Source: an uncultured Lachnospiraceae bacterium (GTDB taxonomy: Bacteria > Bacillota > Clostridia > Lachnospirales > Lachnospiraceae). Taken from it: a stretch of DNA of 32,379 nt. A model generated the notes under the pieces. That model worked only from the letters and a program-made list of their open reading frames with translations. It ran no database searches and was not told where the DNA came from. Within the stretch, counting starts at the first letter, position 1; each line of letters opens with the position of its first letter. Positions 103 through 30,598 of this stretch are shown here, piece by piece. The DNA lies in assembly GCA_947385425.1 (NCBI GenBank), contig CANDKY010000039.1, positions 1 to 32,379 on the forward strand, in the 5' to 3' direction. Made by a program: the position numbers and the translations under genes.

Positions 103-146
103 AAAACCGCTGTTGCATGGTGTATGTTTCCATGTAGCAGCGGTTT
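103..146 (+). terminator. Rho-independent-type hairpin after the partial gene
   Basis: Two 18-base arms (103-120 and 129-146) are complementary except for two positions, with an 8-base loop. The left arm begins AAAACCGCTG and the right arm ends CAGCGGTTTT. It starts 2 bases after the stop of the left-edge gene. The T-tract is short (TTTT), and the A-run at the other end would let it act on leftward transcripts from the acetyltransferase gene as well. Confidence 0.75.
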
Positions 147-192
147 TGTGCTGGCGATATTTAGTTGAGAATGCGGCTCGATAAGCGGGAAT

Positions 193-678
193 TTATCTGT
201 TTTCGATAATCAATTCTTTGCACTTCCATTCTTCACCCAGAACACAATATGTTTCTGTCGTATCAAGAACTGTATCGCTAAAACCGACTGCTTTATAACA
301 ATAATAAGCCGGAAGATTATTCTCAAAAACGCCCAATGATGCTTTTTTTGCTCCATATATTTCAAATACAAATTTTAGACCTAGCCGGAGCATAGCTTTT
401 CCATAGCCTTTTCCTCTCTTGTGAGGATTTACAATAACAAATCCAAAACGTAGTTCATCCAATGATTCATCAGGGTTTCTTAGTGTAAAAAAGCCAACGA
501 TTCCTGTATCATCAAATGCAGTAAACGGCATTAGAGATTCAACAAAACAAAATTCTTTTTGCGTTATCGGATAATTACCGAGTATACCTGCTGTCCATTG
601 ATAAAATACTTTTTCATCCTGACACCATGATAATATTGTATCTACATCTGAAGCCTTATATGGTCTTATTCTAATCAT
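193..678 (-). CDS. GNAT family N-acetyltransferase
   Basis: This 161-residue protein has the size and layout of a single GNAT domain, which moves an acetyl group from acetyl-CoA to an amine. The opening MIRIRPYKASDVDTIL is a typical beta1-alpha1 start. The acetyl-CoA pyrophosphate loop is seen at about residues 87-94 (HKRGKGYG, the R/Q-x-x-G-x-G/A type), followed by a long helix. The segment NLPAYYCYKAVGF is the usual late motif B. The start ATG (676-678) has a GAGGG ribosome site. It lies 48 bases downstream of the nucleoside phosphorylase gene on the same strand, so the two are probably co-transcribed. The substrate cannot be told from sequence; small-molecule detoxification or protein acetylation are both possible. 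Confidence 0.9.
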   Translation of the reverse strand: MIRIRPYKASDVDTILSWCQDEKVFYQWTAGILGNYPITQKEFCFVESLMPFTAFDDTGIVGFFTLRNPDESLDELRFGFVIVNPHKRGKGYGKAMLRLGLKFVFEIYGAKKASLGVFENNLPAYYCYKAVGFSDTVLDTTETYCVLGEEWKCKELIIENR

Positions 679-726
679 ACATTTTCCCTCGCAAATTCCG
701 ATTTAAACTTATGACCACATAATCCG

Positions 727-1607: not shown

Positions 1608-2615
1608 TCATCCAATAGAAATCCCATCAAAATCCGTATTTATTATATATTGCACAATATCTTGAGGCAAAAGTGTGCCATATTCATCCGCATTTTTTGT
1701 CTTTACAGCCTTTCTAAGTCTCTCAGGAAATTTTTTTATGTAGTAATCCAGATACAGATAAATATTATTATCTATATCCGCCTCTATCTCTTTAATAACA
1801 GATTTTTTTGCCCTGATCTTATCTTCATTTTCTGTTATTTTAGCCTGAATCTGCGCCAGAACCTTACTGCTCAAAGGTGTTTTACGGCTAAGTTCTATAA
1901 TATTCTGAAACTTATCAATCTCCTTTTGCTCATCATGATAATACATTTTTTTAATCCACTCCGCAACATCCCTGTTCGTTACATCCCGTGGAGCATGCCC
2001 ATCTGTTACCCATTGTGCTTTATATGCTCTTTTCAGCTGTCCTTTAACTATATTATCACTGTTACCTGTGGAATAGAATCTCAAGATTAAATTCTCCCAC
2101 TCTTCAATCAAACTGCTTTGATCTACCGCTTTCTGCGCCGAATCAATAAAATCATTCAAAATACTGACCGCTTCATCTGCTTTCGCTTCCAATTCGAGCC
2201 TCAGTTTTTCATACTGGACAAAAGTAGTTATCTCCGTCTTTCCTATAATACTTTTTACCCAGTTATTATAAACATCCAGATCATAATCGTTTCCGCTCTC
2301 CTCGCTTTCATTATGGGCATAGACTGTTCTGAGAACTTTCGCTATATCAATAATCTTCCTTAATTTCCTATGTTCATAATAAATTTCTGAATGTCCTTTT
2401 CGCAACGAATCTAGCTTGTTTATAATGCTCGAATCAATCAGAAATTTGTAGAGATTCAAAACAGCCGTCAGATATTTCGCATCTTCGCTAATAACCTGTT
2501 GCAATGGTCCAACTTCATAATTACATATCAGAAACAGATGTTTTGCAATATTGTCCTGAATTTTTTTATTCAGGCGAACTGACGCTTCTGATGACCAGAG
2601 AATGTTATTTTCCAT
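1608..2615 (-). CDS. HEPN-like helical protein, partner of the SIR2-STAND protein
   Basis: A 335-residue, largely helical and charged protein with no transmembrane segment. Residues 96-101 read RTVYAH at the end of a helix (IIDIAKVLRTVYAHNES), which fits the R-x4-H motif of HEPN ribonucleases. This is motif-level evidence only, and the usual polar residue right after the Arg is Thr here. The second half has long Lys/Glu-rich helices (about 215-275) likely to form a coiled coil. Its ATG overlaps the stop of the upstream 1262-aa gene (TAATG) behind a GGAGGTGAT site, so translation is coupled and the two products probably work together. If HEPN is correct it could be an RNase effector or toxin; otherwise it is an unknown accessory protein. 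Confidence 0.6.
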   Translation of the reverse strand: MENNILWSSEASVRLNKKIQDNIAKHLFLICNYEVGPLQQVISEDAKYLTAVLNLYKFLIDSSIINKLDSLRKGHSEIYYEHRKLRKIIDIAKVLRTVYAHNESEESGNDYDLDVYNNWVKSIIGKTEITTFVQYEKLRLELEAKADEAVSILNDFIDSAQKAVDQSSLIEEWENLILRFYSTGNSDNIVKGQLKRAYKAQWVTDGHAPRDVTNRDVAEWIKKMYYHDEQKEIDKFQNIIELSRKTPLSSKVLAQIQAKITENEDKIRAKKSVIKEIEADIDNNIYLYLDYYIKKFPERLRKAVKTKNADEYGTLLPQDIVQYIINTDFDGISIG

Positions 2616-5600
2616 TATCGATCACCTCCATCACTCACCTTCCTGTAAGCGGAAAGCCCGGTATATCCCAATCCCAGCGCCAAATCTTTTAATATGCTTT
2701 TGGGCTGCGGCATCTTTTTTAATCCTAGATTTTTCATGTAAAATCTAATACCAACATTGCCCCCTAAGCGTTCAGGGACTCCGTCATAGCGGATAAATCC
2801 TGTATAATTCTTGGTTGATAAAACAGTTCCCGTATACGGTTTTGGAATTCCGGGTTCAAAGCAAATTAGATATGGAACTCGCATCCGTGGAGTGGAATAA
2901 AACGTCTCCTCACTCAGCCGGGATATTATCGAAACAGCCTTTTTATAAGCCTTATTGTCTCTGCCAAGCTGGATTTCTGACAATGCGTAAATCAGTGTGA
3001 CGATTGGTCTTTTACTGGAGCCTGGGCACAGCTCATACATCTCGCATATCCTGTTGATCTCTTTCCACTCGTCAGGCTGCAGATATGTCAGCTGTTTCTC
3101 ATTGCCCGCAGATAATGGATGTCCATTATAAAGCATCCATTCTACACGAAGCAGTAAATATAACGCATACTGGTTTGCAGATATACAGGATGAATACTCT
3201 TCCTTCATCATAAAATCGACTATCTTTTTGCAAACATCCAATTGCTCCCGATTTAATTTATACTCTTCTCCCTCCATCTGTCTTTCTGCAATGCTTTTTC
3301 CATCAAGATAAACTTTGTTCAGCTCCTGCTGACAGACAAAGCAGATTGCCGAAGGATTATTCTGGTTAAGCATATCGTCAAATATCTTTTGGAAAGGATT
3401 GTTAACATTGCTGTCCCCAATTTCTGCAATAGTTATCCTATGGTTACAGGAATACTCTGCAATCTTGCCAAGATGATTTGTCAGCTCATCCAGGCCATTC
3501 ATCCCCCTATTCGTAACAGGAAGTGTACTGACATCATCGGCGATCATTCTTATCTCACTTAAAAGCTGGAGTTTTCTTACCTCATTGCTTTTCTCATACT
3601 CTCTTTCAAATGCATTAAACAATGCATTATAGGCATATCCGTTCAAGGGTGACCGATTAACCGCCTTTACCAGCATTTCATATTGATATTTATAAGTCAG
3701 AGATTTTACATTCATATCTATCAGAGATGTTTCTGTATTTTTTCCCCTGCAGAACTCCTGATATTCTTTCCAGATATCCTCCAACGAACGGCTGCACAAA
3801 CATGCCTCCACCGAAAGGGTATTTAACTGGTCTATTACACCCCTCCTCTCAAAAGCATTCTCTATCAGCACAATATTCTTCTGCAAATACTCGATATTTT
3901 CAAGCGCATAATCCAACGCTGATTTCATCTGCTTCAGTCTTTTTACGTAGGATACATCTGTGTATACATCAGGATACACATCCCATGGTTGAAAAGCAGC
4001 GGTTTTTTTACGATTATATCTGTTTAAGACATCCCACATTTTTCCATAATATTCCCTTATAAAAGTAATTTCTATATTGGCAAACCCGGCATCCTCATCC
4101 GGAATCCTGTCTTTCATGCGAATATCCTGCAATTTATGAATAATCCTTTCCATATTCTTCATAAAATTTTCATGCTCCGCTCTGCTTTCATCCAACAGAA
4201 AGTCCGTATAATCCGTGTTTGGGCCGATCATACGCAAAAACTTTTCTATCACCGTCTTCAGTTCCAAATCGGTGTCTCCCAGCCTGCGATAGCTTTCCGC
4301 ATAAAAATCCATAATACTACAGATCAGATTCACCTGCTCCTCCGGTTCTATGCCATTTCTCCGCAGAAACATCTCTGCTTCCAATTTATTGCGATAGCGG
4401 AACACAAATCTGCCTTCTTCCGATTCATAGTAATGAATGTATGGAATCTGAGTCGTCAACAGCCTGAAAAGCTCACGGTTGCCATAATTTCTCCCACTGT
4501 CAAAGAAATCATCCTCATCCTTACTTATCATCCGGATTGCCAGAGAATACGGCGTATCCAGCTTAAATCTGCTAAACATCGCAATACATGTGTTAAACCG
4601 CTTCAAATCATATTTTTCGTTCAAATCATCCTGCTCCAGAATCTCCCTGTCACTTTTATCCAGTTCAATCCCCGCATTCCGAAGAGCCTCTATCATTGCA
4701 TTTCCACTCTCTTCTTTCTGTTCCTCTGTACTGATCTCGGCAAGCTGATTTACCACATACTCATTGACTAATTTCTGCTCCCTGGTCAGATTATTATCAA
4801 GCTTTGGTCTGAGAGCCACCATCAAATGATAAAAATACGTAAAAATATCTCTGTCTCCATCCAGCTTTTTCCATATATGGTCCAACTGTTCCACCGGTGC
4901 AACAGAATAGGATTTTGCATTCTGTTTTAACTTTACATACTCCTGTTCTGTCAGCTTGCGGTCAGAATACACAAAAAAATTTTTTCCGTCAAAAAAGACA
5001 TCTCCCTGCTTCGTATTACTCTTTACAAGAGCACCTTCTTCCCGCTTAAACCAATACCAGATTTCTCTTTCCGAACCTTTATTGTTATCATTTGCTGATT
5101 TACTATTATTCTCATTCCACTGTTTATCGACGCCCCTATAAGCTGTACACACAAGCACTATGCGTCTCCCCCGATTTTCCAAGCCACGGATAAGGTTTCC
5201 TGCATTCTCAGCAACTTTTTTATAAGATGAACTATCCCATATAATCAGAAATCTGACATCCTTTTCTCCTATGTTCTCCACTTCCTGCATCAACTCATCT
5301 AAACGCTCAAATTCTGCACTCTGCTCGCCAAAAGACAAATTATCACTTTTAATGTAAATAACCGGGTTGATTTTTTCCTGATAGATACGATAAGCCAGCG
5401 CCGCAAGCTCTATACTCTTGGAGCTTCCGGGATCGCCCTGCAATATAACCGGTGTATTAATATTTTCGGGTCTCATTTTACCATTAAGAAGATTACGCAC
5501 TAATTGCACTAATACATCTTCACACTCTCTTTTTACATAAAAAACAGACTGTGGTAAATAGCCATACCATTGCGGCTCTTCAGATGAATAATTCAGAAAA

Positions 5601-6403
5601 TTATAAAACCATTTTGCCTGTTCAATCCTTCCTAACGGGCGGTTCTCATATATCAATTCATCCGTTAATAATTGCATAAAATTGCGATTGAGCAAAAGTA
5701 TGCTTTTAGAGATCATGACAGCTTTTCCACCCTTGTAAAAAACATTCTGTGCCTCTTGATCCAACTCTGCATATTCAGCATCCAGCTTTTGCCGTCTGGA
5801 TAATATGTCGCATAGCTTCTCCTCTGTCCATACACCGTTGCGTTTACAGATTTCCTTCTCAAGGAACTCCATTTCCTTTCCCTGTCCGCCGCCGTACAAT
5901 TCCACGCACGCCCCGCGCATATCTTTCCATGATAATACCATCTGGCGAACAGGAAATTCCTTCGGATCTTCAGGATCATATCCTACGATAACAAATTTAG
6001 AACGAATATCCATCCTTGCCATAACATAGTTCATAATTCGCTTCGCTTCATCTTCGATATACATTTCTTTCATCAACTCATCTTCAATCTCATTGAATTG
6101 ATCATCCTGAATATTTTCATTGCCAAAAAGTTGAATTACCGGAAGGTTTGTCTTATTAAACAAAACACTCGGCAATTCCTTAAGCTTAACATATCTACGG
6201 GGGTGTACTTCCTCCGGAAATTCTGTTCCAAAGTCCCCGTCCCTACGACTTGTCACAACACAACTCCATGGCAGATGACATATTTCCCGCATTTTTTCAG
6301 CATTCCATTTTCTACCGACAAAAAGTACCACATTGTCTGTACGGAAACCGCTCATTAAACCAGAAACCATATCATCCGCTAATACTGTCTTATCCATCCT
6401 CAT
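2615..6403 (-). CDS. Large SIR2-like / STAND P-loop ATPase with OB-like C-terminus (candidate Avs-like defence protein)
   Basis: A 1262-residue protein. Residues about 20-175 follow the SIR2-like pattern: VVLFVG (25-30), LPWSCVVTSRRD (44-55), PVIQLFG (88-94) and FVIVGYDPEDP (137-147). The usual GAG, TTNYD and LHG motifs are altered. A P-loop follows at 323-330 (GDPGSSKS), then a Walker B-like strand (VRFLIIWD, about 383-390) and a sensor-like strand (RRIVLVCTAYR). The middle and end are helical, TPR-like. Near the C-terminus, GTVLSTKNYTGFIRYDG followed by IRFYMKNL resembles an OB/cold-shock fold. SIR2-STAND fusions are known antiviral proteins (Avs5 type). The start is given as the ATG at 6401-6403 behind AAAGGTGG; a GTG two codons upstream and an ATG two codons downstream are alternatives. 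Downstream HEPN-like gene is coupled. Confidence 0.72.
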   Translation of the reverse strand: MRMDKTVLADDMVSGLMSGFRTDNVVLFVGRKWNAEKMREICHLPWSCVVTSRRDGDFGTEFPEEVHPRRYVKLKELPSVLFNKTNLPVIQLFGNENIQDDQFNEIEDELMKEMYIEDEAKRIMNYVMARMDIRSKFVIVGYDPEDPKEFPVRQMVLSWKDMRGACVELYGGGQGKEMEFLEKEICKRNGVWTEEKLCDILSRRQKLDAEYAELDQEAQNVFYKGGKAVMISKSILLLNRNFMQLLTDELIYENRPLGRIEQAKWFYNFLNYSSEEPQWYGYLPQSVFYVKRECEDVLVQLVRNLLNGKMRPENINTPVILQGDPGSSKSIELAALAYRIYQEKINPVIYIKSDNLSFGEQSAEFERLDELMQEVENIGEKDVRFLIIWDSSSYKKVAENAGNLIRGLENRGRRIVLVCTAYRGVDKQWNENNSKSANDNNKGSEREIWYWFKREEGALVKSNTKQGDVFFDGKNFFVYSDRKLTEQEYVKLKQNAKSYSVAPVEQLDHIWKKLDGDRDIFTYFYHLMVALRPKLDNNLTREQKLVNEYVVNQLAEISTEEQKEESGNAMIEALRNAGIELDKSDREILEQDDLNEKYDLKRFNTCIAMFSRFKLDTPYSLAIRMISKDEDDFFDSGRNYGNRELFRLLTTQIPYIHYYESEEGRFVFRYRNKLEAEMFLRRNGIEPEEQVNLICSIMDFYAESYRRLGDTDLELKTVIEKFLRMIGPNTDYTDFLLDESRAEHENFMKNMERIIHKLQDIRMKDRIPDEDAGFANIEITFIREYYGKMWDVLNRYNRKKTAAFQPWDVYPDVYTDVSYVKRLKQMKSALDYALENIEYLQKNIVLIENAFERRGVIDQLNTLSVEACLCSRSLEDIWKEYQEFCRGKNTETSLIDMNVKSLTYKYQYEMLVKAVNRSPLNGYAYNALFNAFEREYEKSNEVRKLQLLSEIRMIADDVSTLPVTNRGMNGLDELTNHLGKIAEYSCNHRITIAEIGDSNVNNPFQKIFDDMLNQNNPSAICFVCQQELNKVYLDGKSIAERQMEGEEYKLNREQLDVCKKIVDFMMKEEYSSCISANQYALYLLLRVEWMLYNGHPLSAGNEKQLTYLQPDEWKEINRICEMYELCPGSSKRPIVTLIYALSEIQLGRDNKAYKKAVSIISRLSEETFYSTPRMRVPYLICFEPGIPKPYTGTVLSTKNYTGFIRYDGVPERLGGNVGIRFYMKNLGLKKMPQPKSILKDLALGLGYTGLSAYRKVSDGGDR

Positions 6404-6409
6404 ATCCAC

Positions 6410-6813
6410 CTTTCTATAAATATTCTGCTAAATTAGCCCCAATCACATCCACATTCCTGTATCATTAATGAATGTACTGAATCTAATAAAGCCAAAGAAT
6501 TATTTCCATGTATTATTTTAAATTCGAGCCAAAATTTTTTAGTCCGTTAAACCTATTAAGCACCGTCAATATATAATCATAGACGCTGATCTGTCTTTCA
6601 TCCGGCATATCATATATTCTGTTCATACCAAAATATTCTATAGCTAATCATAACATATCTAACTGTCTTTATAATAGTATTTTACACAAATTATACACTC
6701 AACTTTCACACAATTTCTATAAGCTATTCTCAGATGAATGAGCCACGATGATAGATATTTCTCTGTGTCTAGAACGAAATAGAGGTGTTGGGGTATATGA
6801 AATAGAACGCCTT
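6410..6813. other. Gene-free AT-rich spacer
   Basis: About 400 bases upstream of the SIR2-STAND operon, with stops in every frame. It presumably holds that operon's promoter, but no convincing -35/-10 pair could be picked out. No repeats or hairpins of note were seen. Confidence 0.4.
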
Positions 6814-6955
6814 CTATTTCCACTCTACATAGCCTTGTGTATGCCCCTCTGGTACTATGTCAAAATGTTCAATGTCACCTACCTCTGCTATGAATCCTCT
6901 GACCATCACCAGACCAATTCCTTTGATTTCCATCAATTTATCGGCATTCTGTAAT
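6814..6955 (-). pseudogene. IS110-family transposase fragment
   Basis: A 47-residue minus-strand stretch reads NADKLMEIKGIGLV, then MVRGFIAEVGDIEHFD, and stops at TAG 6814-6816. This matches the helix-hairpin-helix segment of IS110/IS1111 transposases (pattern 'IPGIG..TA..ILAEIGDI.RF'). It has no start codon, lacks the catalytic DEDD domain, and its 5' end runs into the TnpV-like remnant. It is a dead scrap of an insertion sequence. Confidence 0.65.
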
Positions 6956-7027
6956 ACTGTAATCGCCTACCAACGTATAATGCAGTCCATTATTTTTATC
7001 ATAAATATGCTTTTTCATTTCATCCAT
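6938..7027 (-). pseudogene. TnpV-like transposon protein, N-terminal remnant
   Basis: The 29-residue frame opens MDEMKKHIYDKNNGLHYTLV followed by GDY. This fits the start of transposon-encoded TnpV proteins of Clostridia (commonly 'YDEKNGL.YTL.GDYY.PDL'). It has a ribosome site (GAGGAGA) at the proper place but stops at 6938-6940 just where the IS110 fragment begins. A full TnpV is roughly 100-130 residues, so most of it is lost. Confidence 0.55.
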
Positions 7028-7150
7028 TTTGTTAGTCTCCTCATTCTGATTTAGTAATTGCAAGTCTGACTCTCAAGAAATATTGGTAAATCATTGGTAA
7101 AATTGAGTAAGAAATACAAAAAATATTGGATTTATAAGCATTTTACCATG

Positions 7151-7379: not shown

Positions 7380-8576
7380 TCAGACGTTTCCGGAAAGTCT
7401 GTGAACCTCCCTGCTGGCTTCTTCAAATCCCAGATGCGTGTAAGTGTTCAGGGTGACGCCGATATCTGAATGCCCCATAATGTATTGCAGCGTTTTGGGG
7501 TTCATACGGGCGGCCATTTTGGAACAGTAAGTATGCCTGCATACATGGGGAGTTACCTTTGGCATCTGTACTTTATAGATTTTATTGTATTTTTCACAGA
7601 TGTGCCGGAAATATTTTTCCCAGTGCATGGCCACCATGGGGTGTCCGTCCTTATCAAGGAAGAGGAAACCGGCATAGCCGTCAATCACCGGCTCCGTTTT
7701 CGGTTTTATCCTCGCTTTCATAATCCTGCGGAAACATCCGGCAACTTCGGGGGGCATAGGCACCTGCCGTAACCCGCTTTCCGTTTTCGGCGGGACTATT
7801 TTATAACCAATACGGCTGTAACGCTGAAGCTGGCGGTCTACATTGATTTTCATGTTTTTGAAGTCAATGTCGGCTTTTGTAAGTCCGACAAACTCCGAAA
7901 TACGCAGACCAGTGTTGAAAAGGATATAGATTCCGTCATAATATTTCCTGAAATGGCTGTCTTCCTCCACGAACTTTAAAAACCTGCGTTCCTGTTCTCT
8001 GGTAAGCGCCTCCCTTGTAACGCTGTCATTGTAAATGACTGTGGCAAGTTCGAAGCCGAACGGGTTTTTGCGTATCAGGTCATCATCCATGGCCATCTGG
8101 AATGCCGGGCGCAGAATGCCGCGTATTGTGCGGACAGTGCTGAATCCCCTGCCGTTTTTTTGGAGCTGAACCAGCCATGTTTTTGCATCGGAAATTTTTA
8201 CTTGATCTATCCGCCTGTTGCCGAATTCCTCTTTTTTCAGAATATTGATGACTGTCCTGTAACCTGCTTCGGTAACGGGGCGGACGCCTGTTTTCAGGGA
8301 TACATATTTTTCTACGAGTGTCGTGACCGTCAGGTTTCCGCCGTCCGGTGTAATCCGGTCGAACAGGTCGGCGGCAATCTGTTTTTCCTTTTCACGTAAG
8401 GAAAGTTCCGGTTTCTTCCCGGCCGGTATCCGGTCATTTTTATCCAGCCGCCAGGAATAGACATAGTGTGTATCACCGAAAGTGTCAGCATATTTATAGC
8501 GGTAGCGGCCGTCTGACGTTTGGATTTCTCCGTTCCGCAGTATCCGTCCCCGGTTATCCCTTCTTTTTTCATTCAT
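7380..8576 (-). CDS. int: Tyrosine recombinase, Tn916-family integrase (left copy)
   Basis: A 398-residue integrase that inserts and excises a Tn916-like element. It opens MNEKRRDNRGRILRNGE, very close to the Tn916 Int start, with the N-terminal arm-binding domain (about 1-75), a SAM-like core-binding domain and a C-terminal catalytic domain. Catalytic residues are visible: Arg in NTGLRISEF, His and Arg in HVCRHTY, His in GHSD and the nucleophile Tyr in LNTYTH. The start ATG has an AAAGGAGT site. No xis gene is found next to it. The second integrase at 29.4 kb is alike along its whole length, by eye about three-quarters identical, but lies on the other strand. The gene looks intact, so the enzyme may be active. 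Confidence 0.95.
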   Translation of the reverse strand: MNEKRRDNRGRILRNGEIQTSDGRYRYKYADTFGDTHYVYSWRLDKNDRIPAGKKPELSLREKEKQIAADLFDRITPDGGNLTVTTLVEKYVSLKTGVRPVTEAGYRTVINILKKEEFGNRRIDQVKISDAKTWLVQLQKNGRGFSTVRTIRGILRPAFQMAMDDDLIRKNPFGFELATVIYNDSVTREALTREQERRFLKFVEEDSHFRKYYDGIYILFNTGLRISEFVGLTKADIDFKNMKINVDRQLQRYSRIGYKIVPPKTESGLRQVPMPPEVAGCFRRIMKARIKPKTEPVIDGYAGFLFLDKDGHPMVAMHWEKYFRHICEKYNKIYKVQMPKVTPHVCRHTYCSKMAARMNPKTLQYIMGHSDIGVTLNTYTHLGFEEASREVHRLSGNV

Positions 8577-12982: not shown

Positions 12983-13300
12983 ATGGACAATACCATGAAG
13001 AATTATTTATCTAAGGATACGACAGTAACCATAAGGCTGACACAGGAACAAAAGAAGAAAATCCAGAAAAAGGCGGGAAAACGGGGAATGACAACCAGCA
13101 CGTATATGAAGGAAACTGCCATGGCCGGACTGGAGAGAAGGTGCAGCAGGGATAAAAGAAGGGTTGCGGGGATGGTCAAAAGGCAGGAGGTGCTGAATGA
13201 AATTTATGTGCTGGTAAAAAAGGACAGGGTACAGGATGAAGTACGTGAAGCAGTGGAAAAACTGCTGGAAGAGGAGGCAGGGTTATGGCAATGCTTATGA
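12983..13300 (+). CDS. mobC: MobC-like relaxosome accessory protein
   Basis: A 105-residue basic protein. The segment TVTIRLTQEQKKKIQKKAGK followed by RGMTTSTYMKETAM is the ribbon-helix-helix pattern of MobC-like relaxosome proteins, which bind oriT and help the relaxase nick. The remainder is helical and charged. The start follows a GGGAGGAACTAT site. Its 3' end overlaps the relaxase start by 16 bases, so the two are coupled, as is usual for mobC-mobA pairs. The candidate oriT lies upstream. Confidence 0.85.
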   Translation: MDNTMKNYLSKDTTVTIRLTQEQKKKIQKKAGKRGMTTSTYMKETAMAGLERRCSRDKRRVAGMVKRQEVLNEIYVLVKKDRVQDEVREAVEKLLEEEAGLWQCL

Positions 13301-13884
13301 TGATGCGGCGTGGGGGTTACACAAACAAGGATGCCGTGGATAATCTTATTCATTATGTCACCAGGACAAGGAGGAATGAGGACAGGGGGGATGAACTGGT
13401 TGCGTGGGGCGGGATGGGGGTCGGCTGTTACGGTGGCCCGGAACTGGCAATCACCCAAATCCGGTATGTACAGGACTGCTATGGCATAGAAGCAAGGGGC
13501 GGGAGGCGGATGTTCCATGAAGTGCTTTGTATTAGGGATGAAGAGTTTGGATGGCTGGCACACAGCTATGGGGCAGCTTACCAGATAGGGATGGGATGTG
13601 CGGGGTATTACTATTCCATGGGGTTCCAGGTGGTATTTGCAGTACACCATCCGAAGCATAAACAGCCGGACAGCAGCATAGCCAACAAATGGGTGCATAT
13701 ACATTTTGCGGTTAATACCATTAATTTCAGGGACGGGAGGAAGTGGCATACCAGTTTTCGGGAAAACTATGCAAGGGAAAGGGCTTTCAATGATATTATG
13801 GGGGATTTATGCGGGCTGGGGAGGAGGCATTTATATTTACCCGTGCATAAACAGGCCTGTGGATGGGCCGGGACAGCCGGTTGA
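13285..13884 (+). CDS. MobA/VirD2-like relaxase, short form
   Basis: A 199-residue relaxase. Near the N-terminus, DNLIHYVTRTRR matches the motif with the nicking Tyr. Later VFAVHHPKHK and, after the SSIANKW segment, HIHFAVNTIN give the three-histidine metal site (H...HxH, with the downstream Asn) of MOBP relaxases. It would cut one strand at oriT and remain bound to the 5' end. Most MOBP relaxases carry a further 100-400 residues; this one ends soon after the catalytic core (at ...CGWAGTAG), so it is either a minimal form or shortened. Its ATG lies within the end of mobC. It converges on the XRE gene 29 bases beyond. Confidence 0.85.
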   Translation: MAMLMMMRRGGYTNKDAVDNLIHYVTRTRRNEDRGDELVAWGGMGVGCYGGPELAITQIRYVQDCYGIEARGGRRMFHEVLCIRDEEFGWLAHSYGAAYQIGMGCAGYYYSMGFQVVFAVHHPKHKQPDSSIANKWVHIHFAVNTINFRDGRKWHTSFRENYARERAFNDIMGDLCGLGRRHLYLPVHKQACGWAGTAG

Positions 13885-23459: not shown

Positions 23460-25987
23460 TTATTCATCCGTGTTTTCAAATTCAGAAGAGACAGATTTCA
23501 TATATATCATAGCCTGTTCTAAGGTTTCCTTTGACAAATTGCATCGGGTAAGCAGATTGTGCAAATTTTCATTATTAGGAATATAAGAATATTCTGATTT
23601 ATTTAGGTATTCCTGATTTATAAGTAAATACTGTAATGTTGTGGCTTCTGTATAAGCGTATAAGCATAGGCGTAAAGTCTGAATTGGAATTAATTTACAT
23701 CTACGAATAAGGGAATCTAATTTATATATTCTGGGTTTAATTGCATATTTGAACAAATTGCCTTTTTTAGCTTTAAGGGCATAATGGCTTTGCAGGAAAA
23801 TAATAAGGGAAAGTCCGCGTATACGGTAATCCATATTCTGAAAAGAATTAAAAGCAGTCAGACAGTACTCAAGTTCTATGGGTCTAAAATTGGTTATCAG
23901 CCGATAGCAGCCGTTATAAAACTGCTTTTTTTCTTTAAAAGAGCCGGGCAGGACAATGGACACAGGTCTATTAATAAACTTTAAGGCAGTTTTCATGGCA
24001 CGGATATATGATATGCCATTTTCAAATCTGGAATTATCTGTCCGGAAACACAATTGACAAAACAGGCCAAGCATAGTATCAAATGCATTAAGTGCATTAA
24101 TCATAGTGGAAGAAAGGTCAATAGTGGTAATCTCATCTTCTGCGGATTGAATTTGGGTAATTAAATTATCAATAAAAGATACTATGCCTGCAGGTTCATA
24201 ATTCATTTGCATTTTGTTTTCTAAATTAATATAAACTTTCTCGAAAAGGTTATGTTTATTATGCAGGCTATCCGGATATTTAATCAGCTCAGTTACTTTC
24301 AGTGACAGTTCAGGGGCATTATTTTGGCGATAGTAAAGTGATATATAATAAGCCAGATCCTGCCATTTTTCAAATCTGTCAGAGGTATTCTGCTGTGCCG
24401 GATTATGCCGGATGGGAACGTTGTCATATAGTGACCGCATGAAAACATATAGAATATCTGATAAGTAAGGGACATGGAGTGTCTGGTCATATTCAGTTAA
24501 AAATGTTTTCATCTTTATCACTAAAACATCATAATCCTGCGGGGAAGGGTTTTCAGCAGCAAAAACAGCATTGGCCATAAGTGCGGAAAGCTGGATTGAC
24601 TCCTCCGTCAGATTAAGGAAACCCATCTGGAACAGTTCATTTATCTGGTTTTGATTGTAAGCAGGAAGAATGGATGAGGCAAATCCCAGAGGGATTGGAG
24701 AGCATCCAAAGCAACATAAATATTTCATGTACTCTTTTAGCAGAATACCATTATTTGCAGTATTCGTCATAGATGTTTTGTAAAAAGCTTTAATATGCCC
24801 GATTAAATTCAGGGTTGTTTTATCATAGGAGTGTTTAAATCTGGTATTGATAGTTGTATCTGACGCCATGTGGTTGTCCAAATAGCTAAACCTTGACAAC
24901 ACTTTTTGCATTATCTGGTCAGCATTTTCCTGTTCGGATTTCCGGAATGATTTACATTGGCCGGCAATAAGGGAAACCATAAGCACATTTTTAAGGGAAG
25001 CAGTGCAAAGCTGTTTTCCATCCTGAGACCGGAGTCATGTTCAAATATTTTGTACAGGATATCATCATGCAGTGGAGGAAGTTTATAAATATGGAATTTA
25101 TGGGAATATTCCTCAGGCGGGTTGTTTACTGTAATGATAATTATATTTACCGCCATGCCTGATAAGTGCGCCAGTTCCTCGGAAAAGTTTTTGGGAAAAT
25201 ACATATTATCAATAACAAGCAATGAATCAGAAAAGTTTCTGTCATAGAGCGCAGAATCAGAGTCATTGGAATATGGAATGCCATTAGGAGCCTGGTATTT
25301 AATGTTTTTGAGGGCAGATTTTAAATTTGTTTTATAGAATATATAACAATAGTCCGCTAACTTCCAGGTGGTCAGGCAGTACTGCATAAAACGGCTCTTT
25401 CCGGTGCCAAAATGGCCGGAAATTATGATTTTATGATATCTAGTTAATAAGCCTTTGAGGTCTTCGGCATCTTTTTCACGTCCGAAAGTGGAATTTATGG
25501 TGGAAGTTTTTAACTGCTGGTTTTTATATGATTCAAAAATCCGCAGTTTCTTTCCGGGATAATATAAGCATAGAGAAAAGAGATGTAAAAGTAAATGTTC
25601 GGAATGTGCATCATCCGGAACAGGGATTGAATATTCGCTATATAAATTGATGATGTTATCCTTTTGTGATAAGAGTGCTTCGGTAACATGGCGGGATGCT
25701 TTTGGGTCATTATTTAAGTTGATGGAAATTAAATCTTTAAGTTTAAGGGATTTGCTACACTCAATAATTTTCTGATACTCAGAACCAAGTATAAGGTCTA
25801 ATTTGATTCGGCCTGAAAAAATTTTGTCAGGTTCATCAAATAAAATTTGGTCATAGTCGATTAAATTATTGGATTCAGCAGAATAGCAGCCAATGAGATA
25901 ATATAAAAATTCCTCTTTTCTGATTTTGTTTTTAGGAAACTGGGATTTAATTAATTCATATACGCTTTTTAAAAGTGTTTTTTTCAT
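23460..25987 (-). pseudogene. STAND-type NTPase gene split by a frameshift
   Basis: Two overlapping frames form one protein of about 840 residues. The first (start ATG at 25985-25987) has an unassigned N-terminal domain (about 1-160), the linker FGREKDAEDLKGLL, a P-loop at 191-198 (GHFGTGKS) and a Walker B-like SLLVIDN (255-261), then ...ENSFALLPLK. The frame then derails after about residue 325. The second frame picks up at VLMVSLIAG and gives a helical C-terminal sensor-like region of about 500 residues. The break lies in a run of five T (24988-24992; A on the coding strand); one more base restores it. STAND ATPases of this form are often defence sensors. It is divergent from the 605-aa/HerA-like operon. 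Confidence 0.75.
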
Positions 25988-26141
25988 TTCGTTGCTCCAA
26001 AAAATCGTTTTTTTCCTTAAAGATTAAAGGAATATGCAAAAAGGCGTTGGCCGAACAGGCTATAATAAAATTGTACCACGAAATACGACACAATAAAAGG
26101 AGAAAATGAGAAGTTTTCATGTTGGCAGAAGGAGGAAAAAG

Positions 26142-27959
26142 ATGGAGAAGAATATTAACTACGCACCGTTATCAGAGCAGACTTTTTTGGATTTTCAAAG
26201 ACAGAAGATCCAGAATTTGAGTCTCAATGACAGGCAGGAATTGATGGAAATAACAAAGCATCAGCGTACACTCGAAAGAGACCTCTATAAAAATAACTTG
26301 AAAAAAGATCAAATGTTTTATCGCCAGCAATTGAAAGAAAAGCAGTTTCAAATTCTGGAATATGACGGGGAAGTAATAATGGAAAGAATTGCGGGCGATG
26401 GAAGAATTTTGCGGAAAGCAAAGCTTTTCGCATGGCAGATAAAAGGTTTATACCGTTTCCGTTATGAAAGTACGTCAGATGAGTTCTGGAATTTAAATCT
26501 GGCAATGGGGGGAAAGGAAATTTTAACGCCGCGATATCCTGTCGAATACTTAAAATCAACAGGGAAATTGCAGTCAACAGTACTTTTCGTGGGAATGTAT
26601 GAGATGACACCGCACGAAAGAAGGGAGGCTTGGATGTGGGTCAAAAATAAACTTCTTTATATGTACGAGAATGCCCAAATACGGGTGCTTCCGCTATTGC
26701 CGGGATGGTTTTGTTGCAATAATGTATGGCATTTTTGGATATCATCTGCGGATACTTCAGCCATTGAGAGCAGGATAATTAGCAGGTTCACTGCCGAGAC
26801 TTTCACCAGTCTGAATATTTCAGATATTATTGACGAATTGACGACAGAAGTGTATAACGGGTCATTCGGGGTATTATTGATTTTCAGGCTGATGGCTCTG
26901 CTCGGAAGACTGACGGTTGATGTACCGCCTCCGATGCGCCTTGCGATTGTTGGACCGGATGCCGTACAAATAGCAAAAAGATATCTAAGTACAATGGCAA
27001 GCAGTGACAGTTGTGAGGTCGCTAATGTCGATGCAGACAGGATTAATTTGATTCGCAAAAATGTATGCGAGCTTCGGGATACCGTTGCAATTTTTGTACT
27101 TTCAAATTGCGGTAGTAAATCTGTAAAAAACAGGATGCGGGATATTTTGTCATGGCAGGATGCGGGATATTTGGAAGGGAATGTAATATCAGTTCCATTT
27201 GTTTTTTGCCAGCAGGAATTTTCATCTTCATATTTGTTTGGCAAAACCGTTACCATTATGACGGAGGATATAAAAGTAGAGAAAACAGAAAGTTTTGCCA
27301 AATTACAGAATTTTTTGGTTCAAAGCATTGAGAGCGGCAGCGGATTCTGGGTTAAAAAATTTGCCCAAAATTATGAAAAAGTAAAGGAGAAAAGGTGTCC
27401 GGGAGATGATGAGCCGGTACTTTGGGTTGGCAGGGCTGTTACGGAAACAGTAATGAAAATTTTGGATCTGGATGAAGAACGAAACAAAAAAATGAGTGAG
27501 TTTTTTGATTTGAGTTTTATGGAGATACAGGAGCAAATGAATTTAAGTGCAGAGCTGCTGATTAATAAATTTAAGGACGGCATTGTACATATGGCTGATT
27601 CGGGAGAAATTCATTTTTGTACTTTAAGGGAAGCAAAATTTCCGGATGTGAGAAAAATTTATTTTGATTCTGATTTCTATTATTTCAGGCAGGGAGTTCT
27701 GGATATTGTCATTATAAAACTTAAATTGGACAGGAAATCTCTTCATATTGTAAAGCAGGAATTGGCAGAAAACGGTTATTTAAAACAATATCGGGAGACC
27801 GGTTTCCGCAGAAGTGAATTCAATATTGATGTCATTATCGGAGAAGGAGATGATAGGAAGAAAATATCAGTGATTGCAATAGGCAGGAATTTTTGGGATG
27901 AAACAGGAGGGATTGCATTATATGAAAGGGATGAGAGAGATGGTAAAAATCTTGTGTGA
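26142..27959 (+). CDS. 605-aa protein with degenerate P-loop, partner of the HerA-like ATPase
   Basis: I do not recognise the family with certainty. The N-terminal about 80 residues are charged and helical. The middle (about 145-285) has LFVGMYEMTPHERREAWMWV, VYNGSFGVLLIFRLMALLGR and RLAIVGPDAVQIAKRYL (266-282). That last stretch sits where a P-loop is expected in DUF927/primase-helicase-like proteins, but it lacks the GK[TS]. The C-terminus (about 490-600) is a winged-helix-like region with FYYFRQGVLDIVIIKLKLDR. The ATG at 26142 has AAGGAGG at six bases; another at 26106 has a site too close. Its end overlaps the HerA-like gene by 38 bases, so the two are coupled. A role in element DNA transfer, replication or defence is open. 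Confidence 0.6.
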   Translation: MEKNINYAPLSEQTFLDFQRQKIQNLSLNDRQELMEITKHQRTLERDLYKNNLKKDQMFYRQQLKEKQFQILEYDGEVIMERIAGDGRILRKAKLFAWQIKGLYRFRYESTSDEFWNLNLAMGGKEILTPRYPVEYLKSTGKLQSTVLFVGMYEMTPHERREAWMWVKNKLLYMYENAQIRVLPLLPGWFCCNNVWHFWISSADTSAIESRIISRFTAETFTSLNISDIIDELTTEVYNGSFGVLLIFRLMALLGRLTVDVPPPMRLAIVGPDAVQIAKRYLSTMASSDSCEVANVDADRINLIRKNVCELRDTVAIFVLSNCGSKSVKNRMRDILSWQDAGYLEGNVISVPFVFCQQEFSSSYLFGKTVTIMTEDIKVEKTESFAKLQNFLVQSIESGSGFWVKKFAQNYEKVKEKRCPGDDEPVLWVGRAVTETVMKILDLDEERNKKMSEFFDLSFMEIQEQMNLSAELLINKFKDGIVHMADSGEIHFCTLREAKFPDVRKIYFDSDFYYFRQGVLDIVIIKLKLDRKSLHIVKQELAENGYLKQYRETGFRRSEFNIDVIIGEGDDRKKISVIAIGRNFWDETGGIALYERDERDGKNLV

Positions 27960-29398: not shown

Positions 29399-30598
29399 AT
29401 GTACAGAAAAAGAAGAGATAACCGTGGCAGGGTATTGCGGAATGGAGAAATTCAGACGGCGGATGGAAGATACCGTTACAAATACGTGGATATCTTTAAA
29501 AAGACGCGCTATGTTTATTCATGGCGGCTGGATAAAAACGACCGGACGCCGGCAGGAAAGAGGCATGGACTGTCCCTGCGGGAGAAGGAAAAGAATATAG
29601 CGGCTGATTTTATTGACGGGATTGTACCTGACGGCGGGAATCTGACAGTACTATCACTGGTGGAAAAATATGTTGCCCTGAAAACAGGGGTAAGTCCTTC
29701 AACAGAAGCGGGATACCGGACGGTTATTAATCTCCTGAAAAGGGAAGAATTTGGCCGTAGACGCATTGATAAAGTGAAAAGTTCCGATGCAAAACTGTGG
29801 TTAGTTCAACTGCAGAAAAATGGCAGGGGATTCAGTTCTGTTCGGACAATCCGGGGGGTATTGCGTCCGGCATTCCGGATGGCAGTGGATGATGATCTGC
29901 TCCGGAAGAATCCTTTCAATTTTGAATTGTCCACTGTAATTCGTAATGACAGTACTGCGAGGGAAGCGCTTACAAGGGAACAGGAGGATAGTTTCCTTAA
30001 GTTTATTGAAGAGGACAGACATTTTAGCAGATATTACAATGGAATTTATATTCTCTTCAACACAGGTTTGCGTATTTCCGAATTCGTGGGGCTTACAAAG
30101 GCTGATATTGATTTTAAAAATATGAGGATTAATATTAACCATCAGCTTCAGCGTTACAGCGGAACCGGCTATAGAATAACCGCTCCGAAAACAAACAGCG
30201 GGGTACGTCAGGTGCCTATGACACCCGAAGTTGCAGAATGTTTCCGAAGGATTATGAAAGCAAGAATAAAGCCGAAAGCAGAACCGGTGATTGACGGTTA
30301 TGCCGGTTTCCTGTTTCTTGATAAAGACGGATGTCCCATGGTAGCCATGCACTGGGAAAAATATTTCCGGCATATCTGCGAGAAATATAACGGAAAAGGG
30401 GGCGGGCGGATTTTGAAGGTGACACCTCATATCTGCAGGCATACATACTGCTCAAAAATGGCCGCTTCCCACATGAATCCTAAAACACTGCAGTACATAA
30501 TGGGGCATTCGGATATCAGCGTTACATTAAATACGTATACGCATTTTGGGTTTGAGGAAGCCAGTCAGGAGATACACAGGCTGGCATCAGGTGAATGA
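29399..30598 (+). CDS. int: Tyrosine recombinase, Tn916-family integrase (right copy)
   Basis: A 399-residue integrase, full length compared with Tn916 Int. It begins MYRKRRDNRGRVLRNGEIQT and has the same three domains as the left copy. Catalytic residues are seen in NTGLRISEF (Arg), HICRHTY (His, Arg), GHSD (His) and LNTYTH (Tyr). With the xis just upstream it forms a complete excision/integration module for the right-hand element. An AAAGGAG site lies eleven bases before the ATG. A hairpin follows the stop. It differs from the left copy mostly in the middle of the N-terminal half and near the C-terminal SHMNPK insertion. Confidence 0.96.
   Translation: MYRKRRDNRGRVLRNGEIQTADGRYRYKYVDIFKKTRYVYSWRLDKNDRTPAGKRHGLSLREKEKNIAADFIDGIVPDGGNLTVLSLVEKYVALKTGVSPSTEAGYRTVINLLKREEFGRRRIDKVKSSDAKLWLVQLQKNGRGFSSVRTIRGVLRPAFRMAVDDDLLRKNPFNFELSTVIRNDSTAREALTREQEDSFLKFIEEDRHFSRYYNGIYILFNTGLRISEFVGLTKADIDFKNMRININHQLQRYSGTGYRITAPKTNSGVRQVPMTPEVAECFRRIMKARIKPKAEPVIDGYAGFLFLDKDGCPMVAMHWEKYFRHICEKYNGKGGGRILKVTPHICRHTYCSKMAASHMNPKTLQYIMGHSDISVTLNTYTHFGFEEASQEIHRLASGE

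Follow-up and report, generated by a model that had tools for sequence, protein, structure and literature searches.

STAND immune receptors are usually described with their own effector at the N-terminus. Avs5 (SIR2-STAND, AVAST type 5) is a single-gene system, whereas the large gene analyzed here, from a contig of an uncultured Lachnospiraceae bacterium (CANDKY010000039.1), belongs to a family in which a partner gene lies downstream in six of the seven members. The entire 32,379-nucleotide stretch is referred to as the window, and L- and G-numbers are labels for loci and genomes, respectively. We consider it probable that the two genes constitute a two-gene, probably anti-phage, abortive-infection system, in which a HEPN RNase encoded on its own would be activated by a STAND sensor carrying a pseudo-SIR2 domain.

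Several described systems resemble the pair in part. Avs5 likewise has an N-terminal SIR2-type domain, a STAND-type ATPase and a long C-terminal region. However, Avs5 keeps the motifs GAGxS, TTNxD and HG or NG and needs them, as described in PMC12931631, whereas the present family has lost them. Avs5 is described with nSTAND3 in the same source, whereas the sole STAND match of the window protein is nSTAND_NTPase5, and neither “operon” nor “HEPN” occurs in the main text of PMC12931631, whereas here a HEPN-like gene follows in six members. Judged by its sequence, the large protein is not Avs5, and the initial annotation, which had assigned it to the Avs5 type, is not upheld on this point. Bacterial HEPN-STAND fusions, some with C-terminal cold-shock-like OB domains, were published in 2013 (Anantharaman et al., PMC3710099). 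They share with the pair a HEPN domain and a STAND ATPase, possibly also an OB tail, but in the fusions described there the HEPN domain forms the N-terminus of the STAND protein itself, whereas here it would be a separate downstream protein, with a pseudo-SIR2 domain at the N-terminus of the large one. A two-gene STAND system with a HEPN effector is also found among the nSTAND2 systems with GT4 or HEPN effectors described in PMC8195603; in that account HEPN is fused to an inactive STAND protein, whereas the partners described here (246-335 amino acids) have no P-loop match and the P-loop of the large protein is largely intact. HEPN/MNT toxin-antitoxin modules also place a small HEPN protein in a two-gene module, although there the other protein is a nucleotidyltransferase and here it is a large STAND ATPase. 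Searches of the open-licence PMC literature listed no paper recognizable as describing a STAND protein that combines a pseudo-SIR2 domain with a separately encoded HEPN partner. The arrangement had been annotated as new; the part for which these searches gave no description is the HEPN-like protein encoded next to a STAND protein with a pseudo-SIR2 domain, whereas an OB tail would not itself be new, having been known in fusions since 2013 (PMC3710099). Because the HEPN-STAND fusions and the nSTAND2/HEPN two-gene system are already in print, novelty is limited to the arrangement.

The two open reading frames (ORFs; Table 1) meet at the junction CGATAATGG, in which base 2615 is common to the stop TAA and the start ATG, giving a 1-base overlap. 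This agrees with the coupled TAATG unit originally annotated, and translation of the two genes may be coupled in the cell. The ORF list also offers a GTG start for gene 1 at 6409, which would give 1264 amino acids. When the pair was sought in other genomes, six of the seven members (window, L002, L005, L021, L031 and L032) proved to encode a homologous small protein directly 3' of the large gene. The partner is 335 amino acids long in the window and 333, 333, 300 (295 from its ATG), 246 and 285 at the other five loci, and the spacing between the genes is -1 nucleotide in the window and -4, -4, 0 (L021; 15 when counted to its ATG), 1 and -1 elsewhere. The seventh member, L006, lies near a contig end; its sequence stops 414 nucleotides past the large-gene stop and no complete partner is visible. 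A 96-amino-acid ORF (110-400, minus strand) that starts 14 nucleotides past this stop resembles the partner N-terminus by eye; its profile scores are not significant (E 0.81-2.0 where listed), and its own stop precedes the R-x4-H region.

The six partners form one family, given that profile searches among 364 ORFs from 11 sources recovered the L031, L021 and L032 proteins. A profile of the window, L002 and L005 partners matched those of L031 (E 1.9e-7), L021 (E 0.0039) and L032 (E 0.88); with L031 added, L021 (E 4.9e-7) and L032 (E 5.9e-7) were the sole other matches above threshold, the next ORF scoring 0.1. The pairwise hhalign comparison of the L021 partner was weak (probability 2.3%, E 0.021). 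In 392 genomes of the order, a search with the partner profile alone returned the window's own gene and one spurious match inside a gene of another kind (quinolinate synthase, judged by eye), and thus no orphan partner, for a profile built from close members that would miss distant orphans. That the pair is real is, in our view, virtually certain.

The small protein had been annotated as HEPN-like with an R-x4-H motif, and this description is supported. Eight residues are invariant among the 175 ungapped core columns of the six homologues (R96, H101, D61, L55, Y56, N16, Y181 and M1), the three distant partners being 16-23% identical to that of the window. R96-x4-H101 is the sole R-x4-H in the window's small protein, and the residue following the arginine is polar in all six (T, T, T, S, T, N). 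According to the HEPN review, the R-x4-6-H motif lies at the end of helix 3, the residue after the arginine is typically polar (mostly N, D or H), and the acidic residue, in families where one is present, lies in helix 2 (PMC3710099). The typical form of this acidic element is Ex3[KR]. A moderate-confidence model of partner residues 1-205 built from six rows is all-helical (pLDDT, the predicted local distance difference test, 76.6; pTM, the predicted template modelling score, 0.75), with helices at 10-22, 44-61, 64-72, 76-102, 110-124, 132-163, 166-182 and 187-203. With 44-72 counted as one helix, which is the numbering adopted here, the motif is predicted to end helix 3 and D61 to lie in helix 2. 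The motif helix is followed by a loop (103-109) with pLDDT <50 at 103-107. R-x4-H alone is a weak criterion, being present in 21% of shuffles of the window partner and in 21-55% across partners. Structure searches with the core model returned generic helical bundles and no HEPN entry among the matches listed, a result that for helical bundles excludes nothing. An earlier fold from three rows (pLDDT 56.7, with meaningless coiled-coil matches) was superseded by the six-row model. Weak matches to the PADLOC candidate families PDC-M49B (window, E 0.0096) and PDC-M15B (L021, E 0.0018), and of the L002 partner to Pfam EAD5 (E 0.038), were taken as chance. We regard it as highly likely that the partner is a HEPN protein.

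The annotation of the large protein as a STAND-type ATPase was supported. Its Walker A motif is GDPGSSKS (residues 323-330) and a Walker-B-like FLIIWD follows at 385-390; Pfam nSTAND_NTPase5 (PF25199) matches the window protein below cut-off (E 1.1e-4), as it does four other members, and lies above cut-off in L031 and L032. The P-loop NTPase motifs are kept in all seven members, S replacing the G before K in the window, L002 and L005. L006 (1.2e-5), L031 (0.13) and L032 (0.0074) additionally match nSTAND3, below its cut-off. The large protein additionally shows a weak match to a domain of unknown function (0.038), and nanobody matches at about residues 630-710 were taken as chance. In Pfam the small protein has no convincing match, and no assignment emerged when PADLOC, NCBIfam, PHROGs and PDB sequences were searched. 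The region from about residue 430 to 1175 is homologous along its length in distant members and has no convincing family match. The tail beyond it is conserved in close homologues and weakly in distant ones; only in the close members does inspection by eye suggest a cold-shock-like motif, GFI-x-x-DG, and neither Pfam nor PDB yielded an OB or cold-shock model or structure, so the annotated OB/cold-shock C-terminus was confirmed by no search.

An effector role for HEPN under STAND control is plausible because HEPN-STAND fusions and a two-gene nSTAND2 system with HEPN have been published, and we judge this role rather probable. The alternative that survives best is akin to a toxin-antitoxin system, in which the large protein would mainly restrain a HEPN toxin that infection frees, as opposed to recruiting and activating it. 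The HEPN-like gene lies close behind the large gene at all six loci, so that the large protein can be made first, and HEPN toxins are commonly paired with an antitoxin (HEPN/MNT; PMC7641770). However, an ATPase of 1262 amino acids with a long presumed sensor would far exceed what an antitoxin needs, and the P-loop motif has been kept throughout the family. We therefore view this explanation as unlikely.

The SIR2-like character of the N-terminus, also part of the initial annotation, was supported by profile comparison. The seven-member family profile finds the N-terminus of L042 in the genome scan (E 1.6e-7, profile positions 22-148), which itself matches ThsA NAD+ hydrolases in PDB (E 2e-13), and an earlier family profile matched the N-terminus of L022 (positions 40-165, E 2.9e-4). 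When the seven N-termini were aligned by hhalign to three SIR2-STAND N-termini (L022, L042 and the gene beside the L032 pair), the score was 66.6 with a probability of 96%; single N-termini scored 46.7 (window), 41.4 (L002) and 38.1 (L005). Column shuffles (100 each) covered two profiles, the highest shuffled score being 18.3 with all seven members and 20.3 with the four short members (unshuffled 53.9); these maxima apply to the two profiles and not to the score of the window alone. In the alignment, LPWSCVVTSRRDGDF of the window falls near IPWKCIYTTNYDDLIE, LPVIQLFG on TPIVKLHG and FVIVGYDPED on FIFIGYSFND. SIR2 NADase chains of KomC are among the weak PDB matches (E 0.041-0.066), and a PADLOC SIR2 model matches L006 (E 0.003). 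Two caveats apply to the comparison. The L006, L031 and L032 group scores only 29.8 (12.8%), its members alone 21.6, 20.9 and 23.2, and L021 17.9; in addition, the comparison set is not independent, L022 and L042 having entered it through profiles of the family itself, and L022 was called SIR2 by eye.

The catalytic motifs of SIR2 are largely missing. TTNxD occurs in none of the seven members, L002 and L005 carrying TTNQE; no member has H or N before the G of the HG/NG motif, the residue there being F, F, F, S, Y, F and F (window, L002, L005, L021, L006, L031 and L032); and GxGxS is complete in L002 alone (GTGAS). The starts of the first two motifs are 22-23 residues apart in the window, L002, L005 and L021 versus 74-84 in L006, L031 and L032, so that about 50 residues are missing between them in four members. 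In Avs5, defence requires TTNxD and the H or N of the HG/NG motif, and in PaAvs5 the substitutions N110A, D112A and E202A, as well as A or Q at N153, abolish protection, as reported in PMC12931631. Because the residues needed by Avs5 are missing, an effector role for the SIR2 domain is improbable, and in this family it would not be a NADase. We find it quite likely that the N-terminal domain is SIR2-derived and catalytically dead.

A dead domain might act instead as a ligand sensor for NAD+, ADP-ribose or a phage-made derivative, gating the STAND switch and guarding NAD metabolism. Rossmann-type domains can persist as binding sites after losing catalysis, and the SIR2-STAND gene adjoining the L032 pair (SFNWD, KPHG) could produce such a signal. 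However, only one of seven members has the NAD+-contacting glycine motif in full, so that binding may be lost too, and a SIR2-STAND neighbour is present at one of six loci only; we consider this role distinctly improbable. Slightly less credible again is a domain that is still a NADase, with the HEPN protein as a second or accessory effector in an Avs5-like manner. The motif remnants in L002 and L005 and the recognizably SIR2-like domain speak for it, as does the tolerance of Avs5 for N at the position of the catalytic H (PMC12931631), but the replaced HG/NG position in every member, the further absence from the window of the TTN asparagine and GxGxS, and the shortened spacing between motifs make it very unlikely.

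The genomic surroundings and distribution of the pair bear on its function. Clear defence-island context is found at two of six loci. L021 sits between Cas genes (DevR/Csa2, Cas_CXXC_CXXC and Cas6; Cas7-, Cas8- and Cas6-type) and a C5 methylase gene, and the L032 pair is immediately preceded by a SIR2-STAND gene and followed by HNH-CTD11 (ABC-3C) and AAA_23 genes; at L031 no obvious defence neighbour was seen by eye. The same chromosomal slot houses the pair in both L004 and L005, its neighbours being, by eye, priA, an ADP-ribosylglycohydrolase gene, def, fmt, rsmB and rlmN. The large-protein family comprises seven distinct members (those named above) with identity down to about 20%, not counting G1210/L028, a fragment whose match has three stops. 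The window protein is 42-43% identical to its L002 and L005 homologues; its profile aligns over long stretches with L006 (hhalign probability 99.2%, E 6e-20) and L021 (100%, E 1.5e-40), and L031 and L032, found by the family profile, align throughout. Among 299 genomes of the same taxonomic family, matches were found in three, namely the window's own genome, G107 (43%, nearly full length) and G028 (partial). A scan of public genome contigs returned the G107 locus again (L004, the locus of L002) and a second Lachnospiraceae metagenome-assembled genome (L005). Profile searches matched 3 of 392 genomes of the order, 5 of 398 of the phylum and 4 of 331 of the class, and reading the genes left G755 (L021), G1090 (L031) and G1235 (L032) as new members, with G028 recurring among the other matches. 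Of 16 genomes in its genus, one, its own, carries the large gene, and in the genus of G107 the partner profile matches 2 of 13 genomes (G107 and G653, the genome of L005). Searches of 9 genomes from the family to which G755 belongs, and of 58 and 33 from the orders of G1235 and G1090, respectively, added no further member. No relatives were found in plasmids (five large proteins plus the window partner as tblastn queries), phages (two large proteins plus the window partner) or viral contigs. The large gene is rare and scattered.

A defence role for the pair is, on balance, very likely. That it is instead a chromosomal stress or RNA-regulation module is the least credible explanation and hardly probable, for although the L004 and L005 pairs share a slot between housekeeping-like genes in two species and four of six loci lack clear defence neighbours, its distribution is sporadic, an integrase gene lies near the window pair, Cas and methylase genes surround L021, and ABC-3C-type genes lie near L032.

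Under the preferred reading, a STAND sensor that activates a HEPN RNase, the large protein would be a STAND-type ATPase that is off in the resting cell. Its C-terminal region would recognize an invader molecule, and recognition would be followed by ATP-driven oligomerization. The SIR2-derived domain, seemingly no longer NAD+-cleaving, would serve as a docking or assembly platform or as a nucleotide-binding switch and not as the killer; the toxic output would come in trans from the coupled HEPN-like protein, which may cut RNA once recruited or released. As to how this came about, it is tentatively proposed, at somewhat less than even chance, that the SIR2 NADase in this STAND lineage ceased to be catalytic and was retained as a platform or a sensor of nucleotides, while killing passed to a separate HEPN RNase.

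Table 1. Positions of the gene pair and its predicted features in the window
Feature	Coordinates	Strand	Basis or remarks
Gene 1: putative pseudo-SIR2 / nSTAND5-like ATPase / long C-terminal region	2615..6403	minus	ORF, 1262 amino acids from ATG
Gene 2: HEPN-like protein, candidate RNase effector	1608..2615	minus	ORF, 335 amino acids
TAATG stop-start overlap joining both genes	2613..2617	minus	sequence
Probable SIR2-derived domain, about residues 10-200, catalytic motifs lost	5804..6376	minus	VLFVGRKW (from 26), CVVTSRRD (from 48), VIQLFG (from 89)
STAND-type P-loop NTPase core, residues 287-423	5135..5545	minus	Pfam PF25199 and motifs
Long C-terminal region, about residues 430-1175	2879..5116	minus	presumed helical-repeat sensor, from STAND architecture
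C-terminal tail, residues 1180-1262 (GFIRYDG ... IRFYM ... GLGYTGLSAY)	2618..2866	minus	OB/cold-shock-like according to the initial annotation
R96-T-V-Y-A-H101, HEPN-type R-x4-H motif	2313..2330	minus	R and H invariant in 6/6; C-terminal end of modelled helix 76-102
D61, invariant acidic residue	2433..2435	minus	6/6; end of predicted helix 44-61

A Tn916-type integrase gene lies about 1 kb upstream of the pair on the same strand (7380-8576, minus; Pfam Integrase_DNA 1.1e-30, Phage_integrase 2.5e-26), and a second is present at 29399-30598 (plus), the two integrases being 398 and 399 amino acids long. Between the two genes are a relaxase-like ORF (13285-13884), a YqaJ recombinase-type gene, and DUF932 and DUF5688 genes, together with three long ORFs (508, 358 and 617 amino acids) at 23460-27959 that have no Pfam match at E 0.001. 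This region, with its two integrases and relaxase-like ORF, is probably one or two mobilisable elements, and given the same genes the window copy of the pair may be carried on such an element. On the 3' side of the pair are a nucleoside phosphorylase-type gene and then an acetyltransferase gene. The former (727-1521, minus; PNP_UDP_1, E 5.5e-31) starts 86 nucleotides past the end of the HEPN-like gene, and PNPase is among the effector domains listed for a counter-invader system in PMC8195603. Its candidacy as a third member was dropped, as no such gene lies 3' of the partner at the five other loci (ORF lists, by eye). Window positions 178-702 are 91-93% identical in DNA to stretches from three congeners, in the acetyltransferase gene region only, the identity ending at 697-702. 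In the search for an insertion site, nothing rightward of 697-702 in the window matched those congener stretches, the acetyltransferase gene alone being common to the three.

Two further observations concern the neighbours of family loci. The gene upstream of the L032 pair (3813-7061, plus) has SFNWD and KPHG motifs, with Pfam SIR2_2 below cut-off (E 0.0035) and nSTAND3 above. The ADP-ribosylglycohydrolase-like gene (by eye) stands directly upstream of the pair in L004 (4279-5838, plus) and L005 (4206-5777, plus), and is possibly part of the slot only. Several candidate members were rejected. G738/L022 and G1368/L042 are other SIR2-STAND genes (L022 by eye, L042 through its ThsA match). The L042 protein (3736-6189, plus), with its ThsA-like N-terminus and KLNG at the HG position, resembles the NG variant of Avs5 described in PMC12931631. 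By eye, G829/L023 is another large P-loop protein, G1001/L024 a signal recognition particle (SRP)-like GTPase and G1392/L041 an AraC-type protein; G1357/L043 and G1391/L044 were set aside on reading their genes, G304/L010 is a chance match (radical-SAM-type enzyme) and G292/L013 a quinolinate synthase-type enzyme. Four of the five matching genomes in the order of G1235 contained other proteins.

The pair would add a defence candidate that has no convincing PADLOC match. In this conserved family the N-terminal effector domain seems to survive as a catalytic fossil, its task being left to an RNase encoded separately. If this is true, the large protein would be an immune receptor whose own effector domain is a pseudo-effector, replaced by one acting in trans, a testable pseudo-SIR2 case that would show how immune receptors swap effectors.

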